From assembly GCF_041146795.1 (NCBI RefSeq), contig NC_135169.1, positions 11,927,585-11,991,584 of the forward strand: a stretch of 64,000 nt of DNA. Reading direction: 5' to 3'. This DNA is from Maylandia zebra (taxonomy: Eukaryota; Chordata; Actinopteri; Cichliformes; Cichlidae). Positions within the stretch are counted from its first letter, which is position 1, and every line of letters begins with the position of its first letter. The translations under genes were made by a program, and so were the position numbers. A model generated the notes under the pieces. The model saw only the letters and a program-made list of their open reading frames with translations, was not told the DNA's origin and searched no databases. Positions 35,501 to 51,200 of the stretch are shown here, in pieces.

Positions 35501-38500
35501 AGTCAAATCTTAATATAAAGAAACAAAAACTGATGTTTACATTGAAATTTTCTGTTTCCTGTCAGAAACTGTCAGCATGACTCTGCTCTGTGGTTTGATG
35601 TTGTGACTCCTGTTCTACACTACTTGCAGTGTTACTTGTAGAATTGCTGCAGAACTAATTGTGAATTTATGTTGATGTGGAGATTTGCTGAAAGTGGTTG
35701 TTTCACATTCATAATCCCACCTAGTCTCCCCTCCTTGGATCACATTCCTGACACTGATTCTCTAGACTCCACATTTTACATGACTATTCATGTTCAACCA
35801 TTTCCAATAAGAACATTATTACAATGCCAAAGAGGTTACCATGAGATATAATGCTGTTTGGCCTTCATAGTAATCCTAAATCATCAATCTATTCAACATT
35901 GTTCCTGAATCCAAACTCACCAGTTGTGTTAATCTGAACTTCTTGGCTGTCCTCTGTGTAGTAAACTGGGTTTCCTCTTCCTCCTCTGCACCTGTAGAGT
36001 CCTTCCTGTGAGACACTCATTTGTCCATTTGATGGGGAGACAACATCCACTGTGGTATCATCTCTGTACCAGTAGTATTTCCATCCAGATGATGATGATG
36101 GGTTCACAGAGCAGGTCAGGATCACACTGCCCCCTACTGGAACAGCTGTGTTATCAGCTCTCAGTTTGGCCTTTGGTTTATCTGCAGTTCAGTTTAGAAA
36201 AAGAACAAACAAATAAATGACTGAATCTAAATAATTTAAAAAACTAGATGTAAAATGTGAACATGACCAAATCTTGGTGACAAGATAAAATAAACTATAA
36301 ACTCATTTTTATCAACACTGTGAAACTTTTCTTTTTTTCTTTGCTGTATTTAAAAAGTAATTTTGTCATGGTCTGGTGACTCTGTGTTTATGAATGAATG
36401 AAGCCAAAATTTGTCACTTGCAGTTGCCTGCAGTGAGAATGGACCTCTTCCGACCATACATATATTACACAAACATCCCATTACAGGTCAGAATAGGTAG
36501 CATTTAAGAAAAACAATGAAAATACACAACATCGGGGACAGAAGGAGAAAAAAAGGACTCTACTCAGACTGGGCTCCACTAGGAGAGCAGTTTGTGTGTG
36601 TCTATGTCAGTTACGCGTGTGTGTGTATGTGTGTGTGTGTGTGTATGCCATGTTCAGCTGAGAGAAAGTGTCACCACGCCCGGTTAAGCAAAGGTCAACA
36701 GTCTCCAGTGGATCCAGGTGACCTTGAAGGATGGACAAAGAGTTCCAACAACAGTATTGTTATCAGGTAAGAATTTTTGTTGATCCAGTCAGCTGATGAC
36801 ATGGGGACGGCAACATGAGTGAAGATGGTCAAGATCTTGCCCATATTGGGTTCAATAATCACAGTCTGAGTACTCACAGCCTGCCCATTGTCTATCATCT
36901 CAACGAGCCTTGTGGGGTTCTGAACAGCTGTAGCCGTTTCTTGTTCTTTGATAAGCCAGGTCCAAGCCAGCTCCAATCAGCCAAAACTCTGTTACTGTGG
37001 TTCCGAATTGGTAGATGTCGTTCAATGTGCTCCATCAAGAGTGTCACCAGACATACAACATAACCAACCATCAAGCATCTCGCAGCAAAGGTCTCTGCAG
37101 GATGGCTCTCCCGAGCTCAGGCTTCTCATAGAGAAGAGAGTGTGTGTTTCGTCACGAACAGGTTGGTCAAATGTCAAAGGAGCTTGCAAAAAAAAGCGAC
37201 CATTTGACCTTAGAACTGAAGAAGCTTCTCGGATGAGAGGTGAAACGTCTTCAAGTAACTTAAAGAAGTCCAGACGCTTTTCTTTGCAAGCTCCTTTGAC
37301 TACGATGACCTGGATGACTGAGAACCTTCACAGACAGGTTGGTCAAATCCATAATTCTTTAGGTTTTAGTGAACAAGACTTAGAGACTCTCTGAGGGTGA
37401 GAGTTAGACGAGACTCGATAAAAGATATGAGAAGCTAAGCAGGAAAGATAAGGGAGGGAGAAAAATGTGACCGCCTCCGTCAGAGCCAAACGAGAAATGT
37501 TTTTGATTCTTTAAGGTTCTGTTATTTATTGTTTTTTCATGGTTTCACCTTTTGTATTTCTAGTTCCCTTTGTTATTCTTTAGGACTTTTTGTATTAAAT
37601 CCAGTCATGTTTGTGTATTTTATTTTAACAAATGGCAGTGTTTTAACAGATGACAGCCAGGATGACTTTTTCTTACTTATAAAATTGTAGATTTGCTGCA
37701 ATTTGTTGAAAATTATTATTATTATTATTATTATTATTATGATTAATATTATTATCTCTGTTTATTTCTGTCATTATTGTCCTCAGGTGATGGAGCAGCA
37801 GGTCAGCATTGGCGTCTGTATACCAGCTGAAAGTTCGTGACACAAAGTGGTGACAAACTGTCTACAATGAGGCTACTATCAGCTGCAGCTCTTTGTCTGA
37901 CTAACAATGTAACATGCTTTGTAGACCATTGAATTCATCCTGTGCTGACCATTATGACATTTGTCAAATGGAGAATGAGGGTGCACAGTATTCTGCGGGA
38001 CCAACATCACCCTGCGCGCCACCTTTTCCACCTGCTGCCCTCGGGGAGAAGGTACAGGTCTATACAGGCCAGAACATCCAGACTGGCCAACAGCCTGTAT
38101 CCACAGGCTGTGAGGCTCCTGAACTCTCTACCCCCCTCTCACGGACGATAACCATATCCAACTTCTTAATAGCACTGAACTGGTCTGCATTGGTGCATCA
38201 TATCATCATATTTTCATATCATATCATATTTTTAGTTAGTGAGTAGTTAGTAGATAGTCATCTCTCTCTTAAATAGATAACTATCATATCTGACATCATA
38301 TCTTACAGTACAATAATATTGAATGGGTTGCATTGTTGTACTTTGTCATGTTTCTCAGGTCTTTGTCTGAATTTTTTATGAACATCACTTGTCATGTTCT
38401 TATGTTGTTGCTAAGGATTGTCTTATTGCACTGGAGTCACACTGGGTTAAATACTTACACTTGGGCTTTAAGGGGTATTTATTATTTTCTTCATTATTTT

Positions 38501-41500
38501 ATTTACGGGTTGTACGGAAGCCCCAAACGCAATTTCATTGTTCTCTGACAATGACAATAAATACTTAACTCTAACCTGACCTATGTATGAAATTGATCTG
38601 ACGTATGATGGGGCGTCATTAATCAAACCCTGATGGTATAAATATCTGCTTATGCTTTGATTAAGTTGAAGATCAGCCCTGTCTGCGAACGGAACTGGTC
38701 TTCCCATGCGTGTATTCATTAAAATCAATTGTCTGACCAAGCTCCTCTGGACCTGGTTGTTTGTACTCTCCTCCTCAATATTTGAACCTTAACATTTGGG
38801 GACTGGGTGACGCCTCGTCTGGGGATCCTCAGCCCTTCCCATGAGGGTGGCACGGATGCCCCTCCGGTGGTCCTCCTTGGGCTCTCGCACTCTGAGGCCT
38901 CTGGATGTCTGGGGCCTGGATCTCTTCCATGCATGCTTCATGCCCTGGGGGACGGGGCTATGGCTCGCTACATCCTCTTGCAGACCATTACATGTGGAAA
39001 CCATTTGAATACAAGCGCGCTGATCCACACAGGTGTGCACACGGGTGTTCACTGCTCGTAGACTTAAATTACACCTTTCTTGGCTGCTACTTCAAAGCAC
39101 ATTGTGCGCTGTCTGTCCTGCGTGCTGCACAACAACATTGAATATTTAGTATTTACTGCTGTTTACACTTAGCTAGATTAATGCGATGGTGTTGTGTTTA
39201 GTATGTTGCTTTGGTTGTTTTTTTTTTTTTTGCTTGTTTTCTATTCTTCTTCTCTCAACAGGTGATCCAGGAGATTTTTTTTTCCTCCCCCCCTTTCTCA
39301 CTGTCTCTCTCCCCTTCTGTTTTTCTTTTCCTTCCTCTTTCTTTCTCCCTTTCCTATCCCTCACTCATGTCTGTCCCGTCTGTAACATCTGAAAATAAAA
39401 TATAATAAATAATCAAAACAAAGGTCGATCAAATGGACCAATACGGCAATGCCACGATGATCCATTTGGCAAAGTAAATCCATTGGGTATCCTTGTTGGT
39501 CTTCAGACAACAATTCTGACGGCTAAAGAACCAAATGGGACAGGCAAAAAGAAGAAGAAAAAAAAACTAAAATAACATTTGGGGGCTTCGTCCGGTGGTT
39601 GAGGAGGGAGAGAGTTGGAGGTGTAGACGGAGAAATCTGGGGTCCAAGGTGGTCGGACGGGCAAACACGAGTGCCAGTGGTCGAAGTGAGTGGGCATAAG
39701 CCGGCTTATCCAAAGGTAAGGCACTACCTGTTGAATTATTTCCAAAGTGTGCCAAATTGGACATTACAAATTAAAGTCTACTCACTGAAATTACTGGTGA
39801 ATGTCTGCTTTGATTTTGATGAGAATCTCATAACAGTACTGAGGATTTAAAGCAGTTGGACTGCTAAAAATGATTGAATGTGGTTGGACCGCTAAAGGAT
39901 TTAATACGGTTGGACCGTGGAAAGCAGTTGGACTGCTCAATGATTTTAGTATGTTAGGGAATTTGGTTATTGTTTGGGGTGGAGCCCCTAATTGGTTAGA
40001 AGGTTGGACCTGCTTCAGTCTTACACTTTTTTGGGTGTTTTACTGTTGTTCCAAAGTATTATAAATTATCGAAGAACTGGTAGGAAGCGCATAGCCCGGA
40101 GTTTACGCTCCCTCCTTGTCGTGGACACGCGACATTGACCTCTCGGCGAAGAGGGTTAGTTCAGTGTGGCTTAACTGTGGGGTACAGGGCATTCTGGAAT
40201 AAGCTAGTGGTTGGACCACTTTACCGTTTGGAACGGTAATCTGCGCTTTTTTGGGCAGCAAAGGTTGGACCTTGGGTGTTGGACACTCTTAAATTGAGTT
40301 AGAGATTTTAGAGATGAGGCCAGAAACTGTTTTTAAACCTATTTTGCACAGAGGCATTTTTTGAAAAATGTATTGATAGCAATGTTGAATATTATTACAC
40401 GGAAGGGAAAAAAAAAAAAAACAACTACACGTAAAATAATCACACGGCGACGCCTCTGCCTTTGTAAATGGAGGGACAGTAACTGCGTGTAAAACCTGAA
40501 GACAGTCAGATTAACAGTAACAGTATTTCGTCTCGGTCTGCCATTCTGCAATTCATCTCATGTAAACAATAACGTGGCGCAAAGCCTGACGTGAAAAGAG
40601 GCACATACCTTTGACGTTGCCAGACGAACTCTGTATTCCTCGTCCGTAATAAAAGAGTTTTAAAAAATATCCGTTTTCGGTGATTCGAAACGCCGTTTAC
40701 GTGTGGATGAAACAGCTGCGTTTTCAAAAATACCCGTGTAGGTGCGGACGTAGCGTAAAAGAGTTAGTAGTTTATTTTATTACTACCTGTCATTTATTGC
40801 AGGTTACTTGTATTTGCTTAATTGTTAACTAAATGTTTGAGGTGTGAAATAAACCGCAATGGAGCAAAATATGAGTGTGTGTGGTTGGAGGATGTGTTAG
40901 TACGCGTGTGTTTACACGTTTTTCGTGTAAAACAAAGGGGGGCCCAGCAAAAAAAGTTTGGGAACCACTGGATTACAGCATCTGTGAGCAAAATAACAGG
41001 TAAAATACAGCAGTCCTGGTTAAAGTTTCAAGTTTCACAGCATGAAAAAAGTTTCCATAACAACATTAATTAAAGATACTCCGTGTTTTATAGAAAGTCT
41101 GAATGTTTGAACACACAAATTATGAATAAGTGCTACTAGATACACTGAAAAAGCAGGGAGGTCTTCCCTGACACAGCCGAAGACAGTAACTAACATCAAA
41201 ATCTCACAAATCACACCGTAAATCAAACTCATCCATCACTTTTGCGATTCTACATTCTCTCTCTCTCGCTCTTGCTCTCTCTCACACACACACACACACA
41301 CACTAAACTGGACCATCTCAAGGTTCTGTGAGTGAGTTTAAATGGATCAGTCTCAATATGCTCCCCTCCTGCTGGAGGTGACTGGTGGTGGTGATGATGG
41401 TAGTCATAGCAACAGTAACAATATTTTGTTATGTTATATTTTTAACTTCCTCCCTCGATTCTCCTCCATCTGCTGCTTTGCCCTGATGTCATTATTGGTG

Positions 41501-42206
41501 TGAAGCTGGTGTGGCTCCAACACCGAATATTTTCACTAAATTTTCAAATCTGATTGCTCATCATTTCTTTTTACATTATATTTTATATTTGTTGAGAGAT
41601 TTTGAGTTTTGTGTTATGTTTATTTGTAGCTTCATTTAAAGGAAGAAGAGCTTGTGAATTGAACAATTGCAGGAAAAGGGAGTGAGACATTGTGTGCAGA
41701 AAAAATGTGCTGTGACAGCCAAAAAGCTACCTCCTGTTTCAACAGATAAGCTAACGGTCTCTCCTTTTAAGGAGATGTTATTTGAGTTCTGTACATGCCA
41801 CACCTATTACTGTGAAAGCTTGTTTGAGTATAAATAAGGAACGTACTGGCGATTCCTCTGTGACACACACACAGTGCACACGTTGGTGCAGTGTCGGGGC
41901 ATCGCCCATGTACATGTAAAATCTTTGAGTCTGTGTTTCTTTGCCTCCTAATAGTTTTCTCCTCACAATATTATATTTTATATATAATGTTTTTGATTCT
42001 TTAAGGTTCTGTTATTTATTGTTTTTTAATGGTTTTGCCTTTCGTATTTGCAGTTCCCTTTGTTATTCTTTAGGACTTTTTGTATTAAACCCCACCATAT
42101 GTATGTGTTTTATTTTAACAAATGGCAGTGTTTGATTAAATGATGACAGGCCAGAATGACTTATTCTGTCTTCTAAAAATTGTAGATTTACCACTATTTG
42201 TTGGAA

Positions 42207-42249
<43 letters not shown>

Positions 42250-45200
42250 CTATTTATTTCTGTCATTACTGTCCTCAGGTGATGGAGCAGCAGGTCAGCA
42301 TTGGCGTCTCTATACCAGCTGACAGTTCATGACACAAAGTGGTGACAAACTGTCTACAATGAGGCTACTATCAGCTGCAGCTCTTTGTCTGACTAACAAT
42401 GTAACATGCTTTGTAGACCATTGAATCCATCCTGTGCTGACCATTATGACATTTGTCAAATGGAGATCACACAACAAACATGACTTACTTGATGCTGACA
42501 ATGTGAAGGCTTCACTCCACTCTGTTGAAGAATATGAGTCATCTCTGCGTCGACTCTTACACATGTAGTCTCCACTGCTGGACTCAGAAACTCTGAATGT
42601 CACATCATTATTGTGTGTCCACTGTGTGGGTGTCCTGGGTCCTCTCCATTCATACTCCCACTCGGTGGTTTCACCTCCTTCCTGCACCTCACATGTCAGA
42701 GTGATCGTCTCACCTCTGAATATCTGAGGCCAGTTGGGTTGTTGTTTTAAAACAACTTTATTGGAAACTGTTTACACATATTAACAGTTGAGATACAAAC
42801 AGAAACATGAAATCAACACAGAAAACTTAACATTGTATGTTTGATAATCATGAGTGAATGTATATTTCAAACTAAATTACTGAACTCACAGGTTATCTCA
42901 ATGGTGACTTCATCACTTTGATCAGTGTAGTAAACTGGGTTTCCTCTTGTTCCTCTGCAGCTGTAGATTCCTCCTTGAGATACTCTGATATCTCTGTTTT
43001 GTTGACCTCTGATTTGAACTTCATAGGTTGTTTGGGTTCGTCTGAACCACTCATATTTCCATCCATCAGAGCTCTGCACAGAGCAGGTCAGTGTCACACT
43101 GCCCCCTACTGGTATGATTGTTGTTCCTGCTGTCAGTGTGGCCCTGGGTTTATCTGCAGATATGAAATAAGAAAATTATATAAACATGCACATTATTCCT
43201 TAAAATTGCATAAAACAAACAATCATACCTAATCTAATGCTAATGATCTTAACAGATCAGAAGCTTTTCAGTCAGTGACTCTGGGTAAATGGATACGCTC
43301 TAATGATATTATTGGATTTAGTCACATAGAGCCTGTTTGTCTGAGGTATCAAACTGTGACATCGTTTAGACACAACAGTGGAGGGTGAACCAAACACTGA
43401 AGACTGGAGAACCCCCAGAGTACTGTGAAGGACAGAAAAAATGTATTGCCCAACTTATACAAACTTCCTGGTGCTTTTCTCACGTCCCCATTTCCACCTG
43501 TGCCCTGTGAAAGGGTATTTTCTAAAGCAGGTAAAATCATCTAAAAAATAAAGCTTAAATCCAGCACAGAGGAAAAGTTCTTTTTAAATAAAAATGGCTG
43601 AAATGTTGTCACCATGACGTGTTATGGTGACAACACTTAAGCCCATTCATTGTGGGGCGATCGTGGCTCAAGATTTGGGCGTTCGCCTTGTAATCGGAAA
43701 GTTGCCGTTTCGAGCCCTGGCTTGGATAGTCTCGTCCTTGGGCAAGACTCTTCACCCGTTGCCTACTGGTGGTGGTCAGAGGGCCATCACCAATGGGTGG
43801 ATGACTGGTTGTGTAAAGCACTTTGGGGTCCTTAGGGACTAGTAAAGCGCTATACAAATACAGGCCATTTACCATTGTATAACCAGTATGAAACGTTAAG
43901 AATGTAACTACTGGCATCACAAACATCATTCATTAATTTATTCATTTCAAAGCATCACACATCATGTTGTCATTATGATCACACTGCCTGTGTTACATTT
44001 ACTTGATGGTGCAGGAGAGCAATGATTCATTCAAAGTCCAGACCTCAGACAGACTGAAATGCATGAGGCCAAACATCTTTCCTGAAAATCTGCACCAAAG
44101 AACTGTTACATGATCTGCAGCAGACTGGTGAAACCACCCGTTGTGTAGCCCCTGATAATTGCAGTGTTTCATTTTGAAGCTTCAAATTATACCCTATTTC
44201 CCAGAATGCAACACTGCTCTATTTTTAAAAAGAGATGTTCACTTCCAGTGGAAACACAAATCCTTTAGAGATAAAGGAAAATCTAAACAGCTTCCTAAGA
44301 AAGTCAAAACTGGACGGACAAAAGTTTTTCTATAGTAAAGAAACTTTTTTGTACAATTTATAAACAGTAATCTGCATCCACATGTAAGACATGCATTGAA
44401 AAACATTTATTTATATTTCACAGAGAATCCATCCTCTGTTATTTGGTTTTTCATTATTTTTTTATACCCAAGTCATACATATGTATCTAGTTATTTTGTG
44501 TATTTATTTATTTAGTATTTGAAAGCTTTCATTTTCTTTGTAATCTTTGACTTCCCACACGTGTCACTTCCTGTAGTTTTGAAGGAGGCCCTGCTTGGGA
44601 GAGATGAGATTATGCTAATGATCCTGTTACAGAGAGGTAAAAGTGCTAAAATGGTTCAAATCTTGGTTGATGTATTCAAAGACACTGCTTCTTTTAAAGC
44701 TGTGCATGTAGAAGCCCAATCACATGAAGTTGCTGAACTGAATTTATTTTTATTTAACCCTTTAAAGCCGGTCAGAGCAGGCACGCTCCGTTTTGCTAAC
44801 TATTTTTAAATCCCGTAGAACCGGAACCACATAAGCTAGCGCAATAATTTTTTTTGCATATGAAACTGGAGGAGTTGTACTTACATCTTACCCTAGATGA
44901 AATAGCAAATGAACATTTAAATATAAGAGAGTGATTAAAAAATGCAAATAAAATAAATTAAAAAGTAAAAATTTAAATAAATACAATACAATTTAACAAG
45001 AAAGCTATGCAATATACAATATACAATATTCAGGTAAGGGTGAATGATGTGATTAGGTAGAGGATCATCAGGGGTCCTTTGTCCCTCTGTGGGGGGAAAC
45101 TCCCACGGGGCTTAACCCTTTAGAGCCGATCGGAGCGGGAACGCTCTGTTATGCGTAACTATTTTTAAATCCCAGTAGCACTGCAACCACGTAAGCTAGC

Positions 45201-48200
45201 GCAAAAATTTTTTTTGCATATGAAACCGGAGGAGTTGTACTTACATCTGATGCCATCAGCTTGTCCTAGGTCACGGTTTCCTTCCACATAAAGCTTTGCA
45301 AAAATTGCATAAAAAGCACTTGCAGGAACAAAAACATAATATTCCAGAAACGGGCTTTGCCGATCCGATCAGCTGTTCGGAACACTTCCTACATTGAAAT
45401 AGATGTCAGTGCGATCTCATGTCCGCCATTACCTCCCTGAAACCGGAAGTGATGTCATTTTCGCGGAAAATGTAGTTTTTTACTTGTAGACCTTAAAAGC
45501 CTTTACTGGTGTTTTTAAAAATCATGTTTGACTTTATGCCTTTCTGAATAGTTTCTGGGATTCTTAGAACTCAAATTGCACTGCTTTAAATAATTTATTT
45601 TTATGCACATGCTGTTTTCGCTGCAAATTTGCATCATAGGATTGTTTTTCGTTTTTTCTGTGTTGCAGCTTTAAGGCAGGGATGACTTGAGAGTTGCTTT
45701 CTCACTGCATATGCTTTATTTCACAATCAGATCGATAACAAAAACATACAGCAGCTCCTCTCCAACTCCTAGCCCTTGGCTGCAGTGGAAAAAGAACAAC
45801 TCCAATCCCCTTCAAGGAACATACGTACAAAAGAGTTTTCCTGACACACCAATGAGGCGTTCAATGCCATCTTGTAAATATGAGTACTCTGGCAGAATAA
45901 CAGTTCAAATGAAAAATACACCAGAACAAACAAGCAAACAAAAAAAGAAGTGTGGGGTACCTTTGAACCAATGAACAAAGTATAACAATTTATACTTTTT
46001 AACATAACCCGGCCCCGTCAATATGTGTATCTCTCACATCTGCAGTATATAAAAATTGGTGTATCTCAAAAATAAAACTATGAAGACACTCAAAATAAAT
46101 TTCCTGTTGTTGTAAACTGTTTTTGCAACTTTTTTGTATTTACAGTTTTGGGGGATAAACCTCTTAAATTTCTCTAAGTAGAAATATATGTAAGAAAAAC
46201 AAAAACGATTTTCAATTTTTTTGTAGTTTGTTGCACTTTTTTTGCAATTTATGTAGTTACTATGGTCTTAATGCATACATATTATTAAAATTTGGGCTAT
46301 AGTGGTTGTATTGATGTATAGCAACTTGAAGTGCTCCCAAAAATGGCTCCACAGCATGTAAAAATATAAAGTGAGCTCTGGCGGACTTGGTCCTATGGTA
46401 GGTCTTAAAGGGTTAAACAGTGTTGGAGACAAACAAATAAACACAAATATGAGACCAGCTGGGATGCGGCATCACTCTGATCCTGTTGGAAACTTTCCAC
46501 AGCAAAATTCCTCAGTTAGGACACAAAAGGAATGAATAAACATTTTTATCATCCCTGTGGCTGAAACTCCTCCTGCTGGCTGATTTAAGATGAAAACAAA
46601 AAAATATATATATATTTTCTAAGAAAAGGTTGATTAACAAGAGTGAGAAGTTTGCAGTTTGAAATCCTAACAGAATAAAAACAGATGCAGAAATCTGGAA
46701 TGAATGTTTTATGTTCACCTTCCTGTTCAGATCAATAATTTTAAAACAGATGAAGTCATTTCAAACATTTATCCACTGATTCAAATATATAAAATATATA
46801 AAAAAGGATAGAGTATGGAAGACCACAAGAGCCACGCACATCGAAATAAAGAATTCTGTGCTTAAATAATGAATTGTAGAATAAATTCTCCATTTGTAAA
46901 TTCATTTTTGAATTCCAATTTAAACTGATTTTTAAAATGCTTTTTAAAATCTTTATTTCAAAAAACATTTTTGAATTCCAACTTAATAAATTTCATTTCA
47001 AAATCCTTTTTCCAATTTCATTTTAATAAACTGCATTTCAAAATCCATTTCCCTTTCCTGTTCACTCAGGGATTCAACTCTGGATTAGCTGCTGGATTAG
47101 CTGTTGGATTAACAACTTCATTTTAAAAATCCTGTGGCTATTCAAATTAGCCACACCGTGGCATGTAAGGAGCTCTCTGATTGGTTGGACAGCCACAGGC
47201 TGTCTGCCTGAATTTTTCTAGTTCATAGCTTCGCCCTGCTACGAAGCGTGTGTGCTTGTACAAAGGCCGTTCAGCCTCGGGATTTACACTCGGCTCGACA
47301 CGGATATGTGAAGAATGAAGGGACCTTGCAGCGAAACGGAGAGCCCAACCTCTGACTGAATGCCCGTTTACTCAGTCTGACCACTTGTTGAAGGTAACGT
47401 GCTGACGTGGCTAACGCTACCATCACTGCACGTAGCCCCGTTATTTTAAGGTCATCTTAGCTTATGAAAGTTTTACGTCACAGCTGTACGAGCTCGCTAC
47501 GTGTTTTATAAGCTTTATTTCACAAATAAAGCTGGAAGTAGAATGGTAAATGGCCAGTATTTGTATAGCGCTTTACTTAGTCCCTAAGGACCCCAAAGCG
47601 CTTTACATATCCAGTCATCCACCCATTCACACACACACTGGTGATGGCAAGCTACATTGTAGCCACAGCCACCCTGGGGCGCACTGACAGAGGCGAGGCT
47701 GCCGGACACTGGCACCACTGGGCCCTCTGACCACCACCAGTAGGCAGTGGGTTAAATGTCTTGCCCAAGGACACAACGACCGAGACTGTCGGAGCCAGGG
47801 CTCGAACCGGCAACCTTCCGATTACAAGACGAACTGCCAACTCTTGAGCCACGATCGCCCCTAAGAACCAGCACTGAGCCCTGTCACATTTACAGTGGAA
47901 CCCCGACTTACAAATACCCCGTTTCACGAAAAATTCAAGTTACGAAGGCACTGAACGGCAATATTTCTGCCCTTGTTACGGCAAAATGCCCGAGTAACGA
48001 AATCCGCTGGCTCTGATTGGCTGAGCCTACAATGCCCACAATGCCTTCCGAATAATGTGACAACCCCTGGCTTCCATACTTGCGATTCACTGTTCCACTT
48101 GAACAACGTATTGTTGTTCTAGTTATCAATTAGCCTATAGCCCATCGTTCAGTATCGCCTCACTCAAAACGCGCAATGGGTGCTTCGACTTACGAAAATT

Positions 48201-51200
48201 TTCGACTTACGAAAGACCCTCGGGAACGTATTAATTTCGTAAGTCAGGGTTCCATTGTATATAGTGTTAGAGCAATGGCTGCAACTATGGCGTTATTTTT
48301 GTGCCACTATTCTGAGCGCACGTAAAAAAATTTGAAAGTGCAAGTGTTGCATTTTGAGGAGAAATTTATTTTGAGCGAAGAAAAGCTAAATTTGAGTGAA
48401 CAAAATTCATTGCTGTGTGCAAAAAATGTATTTCAGTGTTTGCTATTATCCGCACACACACACACAATAGCAGCCCCTCTCGCTCAGTTTTTGCATTTGC
48501 GCTTGCTCGCAATGTGTTGCTTGCGCTCTCGACATTTCTGCCCGTGCGCGTTCAACTCTTTCTGTACACGGTTATATTTGTGCCACAAAACCAGCCAATC
48601 ACAGACTTGGATGCAAAAAAATCTGATTGGCTGTTTTGGTCTCCAATCAGCTCGAAATGACGAAATGCAATATCCCAGAATCCATTTCGTCCAAAACTCA
48701 AACGAGGCAATGGCGGAGGAACACAGAGTGGCGGAGTTTGAAATATTACTCTTTCTGGGTCACAAAATAAACTTTTAAGATATTTTCATGCGAGAATGGT
48801 GCTGTGTAAACATCAAATATCTGCATGATTTATCAAGACATCACATATTTGAATAAGTGCTCTAATGTTTTCGGAGATGGCTCTTTCGGCTCCGAACCGG
48901 CTCTTTAGGTTGTTTTGTTGATTTAATTAATTTATTATTAACAATATAAAATTATGCACAAAAGGAATTACTAATGTAAACAAAAAGTGGTTTTATTTAT
49001 ATATGTTTATATATGAATATATGCAGTGGCCCCTAGAGACAAAGCACTACAAACTCCAAAACACATTTCTGAACTGAACTGAACTTCCAATGGAGAAGCG
49101 TGATGACGCGCGATTGCGGGTCCCGCGAAAATTCAGAAGCAGATTTGCATCGCGAAAACGCGTCAAAAAAAATAGGCGCCTACTGCTCGAGTTGGAAAAA
49201 TCTGAACTCCAGCATCAATTTGCGCCGCGACAACCAATCAGAAGCCTGGTGACGTGGCTCTGACCTAGGTCAAAGGGGCAGGTCCAGCCAAAGCCCTTCA
49301 TACTTCATTCAATATGGAGGAAAGGCTAATCAACGCCGTAGCAAACCACCCGGAGCTGTACGACACCAGCTGCTTTCTGTACCGAGACAGGAATAAAAAG
49401 GACCGAGCTTGGATGAAGATATGTGAAGAGATCCGGCAACCTGGTAAGTTCATTCATTTCTCTTTTTAAATTTTTGACTGACCTGGGGAAGCTGCACAAA
49501 AGCTAGCAAGCCCGCCTACTGTCCCGCTATGTTCCCACTGATGTACAAATACCTTTCTGCTCTTATGCATGTTGTCATATAGGTCAACGGAGCTTGCAAA
49601 GAAAAGCGTCTGGACTTCTTTAAGTTGCTTGAAGTCGTTTCACCTCTCATCCGAGAAGCTTCTTCAGTTCTAAGGTCAAATGGTGGGGAGTCCCAGATAT
49701 AAACCTAGTGGGAGTATCCCCCCACAGAGGGACAAAAGGACCCCCTGATGATCCTCTAATCGCCTGAGCCAAGGTGTGAAACTGGGTGTGGGTTCCAATC
49801 AGCCAGGGTTTCGGGTGAGCTCATTGTGAAACCTGGCCCCACCTTATCATGCGAATTCCTGAGGTCAGATGCCCCAGGATGTGAGTGGGCGTTAAGGCGT
49901 CTGGGGAGGGAACTCAGAACTGGATTATAGATGGCAGAGAGTTGGTGTCGTAAACCACCGCCTCTGTTCAAAGATGGTCACTCACAGTGGACATAGATGG
50001 CTTCTTTCACTTTGTGAAAGAAGAAGCAGAGTCGTGTCTCCTGCCCTTGCCAAATTTATCATGTTTGGTTTTGATAATCATCACGTCCAATTGAAAAAAC
50101 AGCACAAAAACACCCATAACTATGACCTCATTTGGAAATAGACACCTGCACCGGGAGGGAAAAAGGCGCACAAAAGTGGCAGGCAGATGAAGAAAGAAAC
50201 GCGGCATAATAATACTTTTACGTTTTAAAATCTACAAAGGTTTGCACTTTGAGAACCCCTGTTGCAATAAATGAGAGACCACTGTATATACTTTCTCTAT
50301 GACTATTGTTTTCAACCTGTTATCATTAGGGCTGCCACAATTAGTCGACTAGTCACGATTACGTCGACTATCAAAATCGTCGACGACAAATTTAATAGTC
50401 GACGCGTCGTTTGAAGCTTTGTAAGATCCCAAAAGACGCAGGAATAAGTAGTAGGATTTAAGAGTGTAATAACGGACTGAAACAGAAGATGGCAGCACTG
50501 CATGTACAAGGATGCCAGCTGCCGTTAAACCCAGAGGAAGAAGAAACTGTGTCCCAGAATTCATAGCGCGGACCTGCTCAGTTTCCAGCAATGGCGGCAG
50601 CTAGTTAGTTTTAAAATTACTCTTATTATTCTTTCTGGGTCACAAAATAAATGTTTAACATATTTTCAGGTGAGAATGTAGCTGTGTAAACCTCAAATAT
50701 CTGCTCAGTTTATCAAGACATCACATATTTTCAAAAGCGCTCCGACGTTTTCGGAGACGTCTGTTACCCACCAGCTCGATAGTTAGCCAGGGTTCAAGGC
50801 TCACTAGAGCCGGTGAGAACACCGGACTCCCAGCAAATCGTTTTCAAACCCACCGCCATCTTTCACTACTCAGGTTAAACATGATATATAAATCACTCAG
50901 ATAACTTAAAAATGTTATTGTTTGGCTTTTTTCAGTATTTTATTTGTTCCTGAGTAAATCGGTTTGGCTGATATTAAAGTTATAGTTTTTACACAGCTGA
51001 ATAAACGTCAAGCAGACAGCTGATTATCAGAAGTGTGAGATGCTCCAGAATATACTCCGGTGTCCTGTTATATTTTAGATAGCAAGGAGCAGACGGCTGA
51101 GTTTATTAAACTTCACCGAAACAATCTGGAAATGTCATTAAAATTTAATAAACTATCATATTGTCTTTATGTTTAGTTAGCACATACCTTAAACACTTAA

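Follow-up and report, generated by a model that had tools for sequence, protein, structure and literature searches.

An array of TTGGA-loop hairpins under selection in the 5′ leader of a retrovirus-like element of Maylandia zebra

Introduction

The nearest described counterpart of the structure reported here is the pair of adjacent hairpins with GACG tetraloops in gammaretroviral leaders, SL-C and SL-D of Moloney murine leukaemia virus, with its equivalent in spleen necrosis virus. These repeated hairpins share one loop, lie 3′ of the long terminal repeat (LTR) and the primer site, and form part of a packaging signal. Reviews describe retroviral packaging signals as occupying this part of the leader and using stem-loops bound by Gag. 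Here we analyse a stretch of 64 kb of the Maylandia zebra genome (contig NC_135169.1; hereafter the window), which holds part of the 5′ leader of a retrovirus-like LTR element with an array of hairpins that share the loop TTGGA. Against the two hairpins of the gammaretroviral pair stand 9 to 14 TTGGA hairpins in the present element and its relatives, or else TTAGAGT arrays; the loops are TTGGA and TTAGAGT-type, not GACG tetraloops on two adjacent hairpins. In size and regularity the array surpasses the hairpin pairs known from the leaders of retroviruses, and its loop switch was unexpected; no description of such an array was found in a literature search of incomplete coverage, most subscription journals lying outside it.

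Other systems share single aspects of this design. The Psi GGAG loop of human immunodeficiency virus type 1 (HIV-1) and other nucleocapsid sites are likewise leader hairpins that expose unpaired G to nucleocapsid, but the HIV-1 leader has mixed sites and no single-motif array, and replacement of its GGAG loop does little harm. Coronavirus SL5, a proposed packaging signal, also carries one loop, UUYCGU, on several 5′-leader stems, although its hairpins number two or three, all borne by a single multibranch helix, and virus and loop are unrelated to the present array. The dispersed packaging signals of parechoviruses, which are bound by coat protein, are many stem-loops with a short common loop motif (GxU); they occur genome-wide with degenerate stems, whereas the present array is clustered in the leader and its loops are near-fixed.

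An array of hairpins with one loop

TTGGA occurs nine times between positions 39851 and 40288 of the window, on the + strand throughout, each time at the tip of a hairpin (h1 to h9):

39851..39865, + strand: hairpin 1, AGCAG[TTGGA]CTGCT
39880..39892, + strand: hairpin 2, GTGG[TTGGA]CCGC, one G-U
39906..39918, + strand: hairpin 3, ACGG[TTGGA]CCGT
39923..39937, + strand: hairpin 4, AGCAG[TTGGA]CTGCT
40001..40011, + strand: hairpin 5, AGG[TTGGA]CCT
40206..40220, + strand: hairpin 6, AGTGG[TTGGA]CCACT; in 26 of the 35 usable leaders of relatives, AGGAG[7-nucleotide loop]CTCCT
40221..40239, + strand: hairpin 7, TTACCGT[TTGGA]ACGGTAA
40261..40273, + strand: hairpin 8, AAGG[TTGGA]CCTT
40274..40288, + strand: hairpin 9, GGGTG[TTGGA]CACTC, one G-U

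An earlier reading of the letters alone (the sequence-only reading) had placed nine hairpins here, and they are all present, with the qualification that stems 2 and 9 each need a G-U pair. Watson-Crick pairs alone give stems of 5, 2, 4, 5, 3, 5, 7, 4 and 3 for h1 to h9 (5, 4, 5, 5, 3, 5, 7, 4 and 5 when G-U is allowed); at least three such pairs close eight of the nine loops, and at least four close six. The same reading counted GGGG-TGGAG-CCCC as a close tenth member. This hairpin does exist at 39976–39988, but TGGAG is outside the nine commonest 5-nucleotide loops of the relatives, whose regular tenth hairpin is CTG[TTGGA]CAG (six of seven relatives with flanks). The window copy is without the latter because its similarity to relatives ends at 40331.

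The hairpin array is genuine and greatly exceeds the chance expectation. When the array's 438 bases were dinucleotide-shuffled (2,000 shuffles per threshold), the control proposed with the sequence-only reading, a comparable number of TTGGA-loop stems never arose: the maximum was one hairpin at either threshold, with means of 0.02 for stems of at least three pairs (eight observed) and 0.005 for stems of at least four (six observed). When the loops were held fixed and the remainder shuffled, the observed stems were reached in 0 of 20,000 trials, and the same held with the two closing letters fixed as well. Outside the array, no TTGGA with a Watson-Crick stem of at least four pairs occurs on either strand of the window, and in a scan of 39600–40310 for pentamer loops of every sequence TTGGA accounts for 6 of the 10 hairpins with a stem of at least four pairs and a 5-nucleotide loop. 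Aligned to each other, the nine hairpins pair in 42 of 45 stem cells (93.3%), with two-sided changes at all five stem positions and a covariation score of 0.961, against 0.255 (s.d. 0.092) in shuffles, none of 500 of which reached it. Rfam gave no match above gathering score in 37000–50000.

Covariation and rates of change in relatives

Relatives were collected by four DNA searches of the window's own genome, in each of which the best 40 of 303–307 candidates were scored; the family is therefore larger than the loci examined. The 97 loci read, which leave aside those of the fourth search and count some places twice, were reduced to 38 representative leaders under 97% identity. Of the 352 sense TTGGA in these leaders, 275 lie within hairpins of at least three Watson-Crick pairs, among which 19 different stem forms occur; none of the 79 antisense TTGGA is so placed. 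A matched leader has between 2 hairpins, the case of a 323-base piece, and 12; one locus has 14 with its downstream part included.

Two short leaders were left out of the alignment, which holds 36. Leaders excluded at a site, being gapped or having no recognised loop, number 2, 4, 16, 13 and 0 for h1 to h5, and 1, 1, 1 and 9 for h6 to h9; at h1 and h6 a 7- or 8-nucleotide loop was picked by its letters before pairing was counted. Stem cells pair in 1163 of 1173 cases (99.1%), and pairing falls to 48.9, 35.2 and 52.3% when the 3′ arm is slid by 1, 2 and 3 positions. Double changes appear in 10 of 38 pairs, against 1, 3 and 3 in the slid controls. One of the ten, at position 3 of h3, is false, the 7-nucleotide loop of leaders L328 and L302 having been read as a 5-nucleotide one; this misreading also accounts for 4 of the 10 unpaired cells, and nine pairs with ten double types remain sure. 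Dealing the 3′ letters anew leaves 95.0% of cells paired on average and 95.8% at most, a high value because many pairs never vary. In a single copy, L326, three hairpins show compensated changes (CACCGT/ACGGTG, CAGG/CCTG and GCC/GGC). On a tree built from 554 columns with the hairpins masked, 11 of whose 33 inner branches are well supported, parsimony counts 9 single pair-keeping and 8 breaking changes beside 42 double-compensating ones, a figure probably inflated by recombination and by the weakly supported tree; h3 of L328 and L302 adds one double and two breaking events to these counts. The slid controls give one double change each and 28–38 breaking changes.

Loop columns are the slowest among the loop, stem and linker parts of the array, with 0.60 changes per column (40 columns) against 1.44 in stems (66) and 1.94 in linkers (290). 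The linker–loop difference was reached in 3 of 20,000 permutations and the stem–loop difference in 452 of 20,000.

These rates, and the unequal flanks of the hairpins, bear on the possibility that there is no selection on RNA here at all, but tandem duplication of one quasi-palindrome, with template switching keeping the stems perfect and so imitating covariation. The tandem h2/h3 alignment may mix paralogues, and h5–h9 and h7–h9 were therefore counted separately too. The flanks of h7, h8 and h9 are unrelated to one another, yet these three hairpins covary by themselves, with 425 of 431 cells pairing and double changes in 5 of 13 pairs against 1 when slid; the loops change more slowly than the linkers, and there is no antisense or other-loop array of comparable size. 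That h1–h4 lie within a degenerate 27-bp tandem repeat, that copies gain and lose whole hairpins, and that the stem and loop of h6 are altered together would all fit duplication without selection, which we nevertheless hold to be highly improbable. The array is the product of selection on RNA structure, as the sequence-only reading had proposed: relatives, covariation and shuffles support this, with TTGGA-type tips near-fixed over co-varying stems.

Loop switching between subfamilies

The 7-base loops at h6 are TTAGAGT in 16 leaders, TTAGAAT in 5, ATAGAGT in 3, and TTGGAGT and CTAGAGT in 1 each; h1 reads TTAGAGTT in two leaders, and TTAGAGT, TTCGAGT and TTGAAGT are present at further array sites. 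Genome-wide, a pattern of two GTTAGAGTC in a row matched 43+43 times and its reversed control 2+2 times; for a triple GTTGGAC pattern the corresponding figures were 43+145 and 6+10. TTAGAGT arrays were examined at three places: L331 has AGCAG[TTAGAGT]CTGCT three times together with the stems TTGGG/CCCAA, TTGG/CCAA and GAG/CTC; in L332, TGGG/CCCA occurs three times beside TTGAG/CTCAA; and L333 carries six hairpins on five stems. The array design is therefore shared by a sister subfamily, in which TTAGAGT is the tip. The earlier suggestion that an exposed GGA is the conserved item does not survive this finding, and the comparison with bacterial CsrA, which rested on GGA, fails as well, GGA being replaced by TTAGAGT at the same sites.

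A pattern that spans both forms is UUNRA(NN), which we take to be the sequence pattern of the tRNA T-loop. TTGGA, TTAGAGT, TTAGAAT, TTGAAGT, TTCGAGT and TTGGAGT fit it; ATAGAGT (three leaders) and CTAGAGT (one) break it. A G-C pair closes 238 of 270 pentaloops and 31 of the 35 heptaloops that match the pattern, four of the 35 being TTAAATT closed by C-G, and shuffles give 1.66 such heptaloops on average and 7 at most (200 shuffles). TTGGA and the majority of the 7-base tips have the T-loop sequence pattern, in most cases with its G-C closing pair; the likeness to the tRNA T-loop is one of sequence pattern alone, and the 5-nucleotide form is without the last two bases. Tentatively, and from sequence, the array may present T-loop-like tips, similar to the tRNA T-arm, in two interchangeable forms, UUGGA and UUAGAGU, switched between subfamilies together with a co-evolving ligand; such a repeat-based code might mark the retroelement's own genome against other RNA.

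The same loop switch bears on a host ligand. The tips might bind a host RNA-binding protein for export, stability, tailing or translation of the unspliced RNA, as CNGGN pentaloops recruit SAM-domain proteins (Smaug, ZCCHC14). The accounts consulted have ZCCHC14 binding a CNGGN pentaloop in the RNA of hepatitis B virus (HBV), in its post-transcriptional regulatory element, and of human cytomegalovirus. UUGGA resembles CNGGN apart from its first base, GG at positions 3–4 being common to both, and many equal sites fit a host ligand as well as Gag. Both TTGGA and the TTAGAGT class, however, have U as that first base, whereas CNGGN pentaloops start with C, which is invariant in the Smaug consensus in the same accounts, and the 7-nucleotide alternative is incompatible with CNGG; we consider a host ligand of this kind unlikely.

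The element family and the window copy

The array belongs to an LTR retroelement: paired LTRs occur among the relatives, and the primer site directly follows the LTR. A 234-bp LTR in relatives, seen as LTR-like matches in same-strand pairs, ends directly before TTTGGGGGCT, and judged by orientation and spacing five same-strand pairs, with starts 6.3–8.9 kb apart, would be the two LTRs of single elements. One pair is identical over 234 bp, so that the family appears to have been active recently. LTR, TATA and poly(A) signals are present in all 28 leaders with 300 nucleotides upstream. The first 17 letters of the primer site TTTGGGGGCTTCGTCCG, which like TGGGGGCTTCGTCCGG we assign to tRNA-Pro, are the same in 26 of the 33 relatives whose sequence extends upstream, the window copy among them, and the other seven have close variants. 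The palindrome ATAAGCCGGCTTAT is perfect in 18 of 36 leaders, GGCGCC-core palindromes stand in 11 and a GCCGGC core in 5. The donor sequence is AGGTAAG in 24 of 36 leaders and AGGTAG in 11 of 36.

The window copy is a fragment of such an element:

38576..38794 (start approximate), + strand: 5′ LTR, with TATAAATA at 38637 and ATTAAA at 38718; matches the LTRs of seven relatives
38790..38801, + strand: target-site duplication, first copy of the 12-bp TAACATTTGGGG, a motif found twice on the + strand and not on the − strand of the window
38802..39572, + strand: inserted retroposon-like block of 771 bp with an A-rich 3′ tail, flanked by the TAACATTTGGGG copies
39573..39584, + strand: target-site duplication, second copy of TAACATTTGGGG
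39580..39595, + strand: primer binding site TGGGGGCTTCGTCCGG, presumably of tRNA-Pro type
39696..39709, + strand: 14-bp palindrome ATAAGCCGGCTTAT, candidate dimer initiation site
39712..39721, + strand: candidate splice donor AAAG/GTAAGG, intron from 39716
40289..40331, + strand: end of the retroelement fragment

The order LTR, tRNA-Pro-type primer site, palindrome, splice donor and array is as the sequence-only reading had it, except for the LTR end that it placed near 39579: that point is the second target-site copy, and the true end is at 38794, with the 771-bp block between. In seven of seven relatives with flanks the block is missing from the border, and the match to window 38.58–38.80 kb continues directly into the primer site at 39.58 kb. 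The uninterrupted border in relatives and the target duplication indicate that the window copy was split there by a retroposon-like insertion. The leader after the primer site exceeds 700 nucleotides.

Several side observations concern the family and its surroundings. Upstream of the donor the palindrome's core varies between GCCGGC and GGCGCC with palindromy kept, as a dimer initiation site would; the window contains 18 other 14-bp palindromes. One leader group at ≥97% identity comprises 26 of the 97 loci, all on contig C3 at about 54–60 Mb; a larger block that contains the retroelement may have been amplified there. The fragment in the window is flanked by direct repeats (37496–37974 and 41986–42466; pieces 89% and 97% identical, 4.49 kb apart), a local duplication in a region with immunoglobulin-domain fragments. 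Pattern scans also found at least 231 loci in viral contigs, which we take for chance or coding repeats: among the matches listed, at most four TTGGA hairpins (Watson-Crick stem ≥4) fall within 450 bases, and loci with at least two repeat one stem or its shorter form, the exception being a single locus whose two stems differ. The primer-site pattern matched twice in bacterial and archaeal contigs, both times in bacteria, again taken as chance.

Discussion

We propose that this multicopy, retrovirus-like LTR element has in its 5′ leader an RNA element maintained by selection, namely the array, most likely serving multivalent Gag recognition and the packaging of unspliced RNA, a reading to which we give a probability of roughly one half. 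The array has conserved RNA secondary structure and lies in the leader near the candidate dimer site and donor, as retroviral packaging signals do. We infer donor use, Gag binding and packaging as follows. Lying 3′ of the splice donor, the array would be kept by the unspliced, genomic RNA only; its many near-identical tips could offer a multivalent platform to the nucleocapsid part of the element's own Gag; and the adjoining palindromic dimer site would help to select dimeric genomic RNA for packaging.

Several points weigh against this proposal. The stretch from donor to array is nearly as slow as the loops (0.74 changes per column, 120 columns), so that slowness is not special to the loops, and the ligand cannot be read from the conservation of the loops by itself. 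No gag or pol frame, and hence no binding partner, was identified in the window copy or the pieces scanned: none was visible in the window, and the 14 translated pieces near leaders contained no gag, pol or env frame, the nearest approach being one piece with a weak, sub-threshold match to RVT_1. Among the best 78 of 383 candidate places scored for TLV_coat and the best 150 of 24802 scored for RVT_1, none could be placed beside a leader or between paired LTRs. Finally, when the whole leader (39600–40330) is folded, h1–h5 form at a predicted probability of 0.15 or less because the hairpins pair with each other, h1 with h4 and h2 with h3. In the same fold h6–h9 form at 0.68–1.0, h8 reaching only 0–0.09 in shorter stretches. 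With pairing spans limited to 40 bases, h1, h4, h6 and h7 form fully, h8 at 0.76, h5 at 0.59, h9 at 0.35, and h2 and h3 at 0.02. As a whole the leader has only a moderate folding advantage over shuffled sequence (z −2.85 for 20 shuffles and −2.45 for 100).

Such pairing between hairpins would also be expected if they were dimer-linkage elements, near self-complementary, with equal copies on two RNAs or on one opening into extended duplexes, and the predicted energies (−15.6 to −26.2 kcal/mol for a hairpin self-duplex against −2.3 to −7.6 for a single hairpin) point the same way. TTGGA is nonetheless a poor kissing loop, not being self-complementary, and its G would stand opposite G whenever a duplex formed; were dimer contact what is selected, relatives would be expected to keep a different loop, and the GC-core palindrome upstream is the better dimer site. 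Dimer linkage by the array is in our view distinctly unlikely, slightly more so than a host ligand.

Alternatively, the array might serve translation of the unspliced RNA, by internal entry or shunting, and not packaging. Hairpin number and spacing differ between copies, unlike known entry sites, which have a fixed architecture; the great length of the leader beyond the primer site, and the short conserved open frame that lies about 0.8 kb further on, would agree with such a role, which we regard as highly improbable. The frame itself, of about 100 codons, has 85 genome matches (for example L301:353-658 on the − strand and L289:3387-3710 on the + strand, both outside the window); in seven leader/frame pairs compared by eye, some 0.8 kb separates its start from the matched leader. 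It belongs to no Pfam or NCBIfam family, and its three relatives in the protein database, at 70–84% identity, have no Pfam domain.

Retroviral packaging signals are hard to define, being long and structurally mixed. About ten near-identical covarying hairpins, together with the sister loop, make the question of what Gag reads testable by comparing each loop with its cognate nucleocapsid, and subfamilies with different loops amount to a natural experiment on multivalent RNA recognition.
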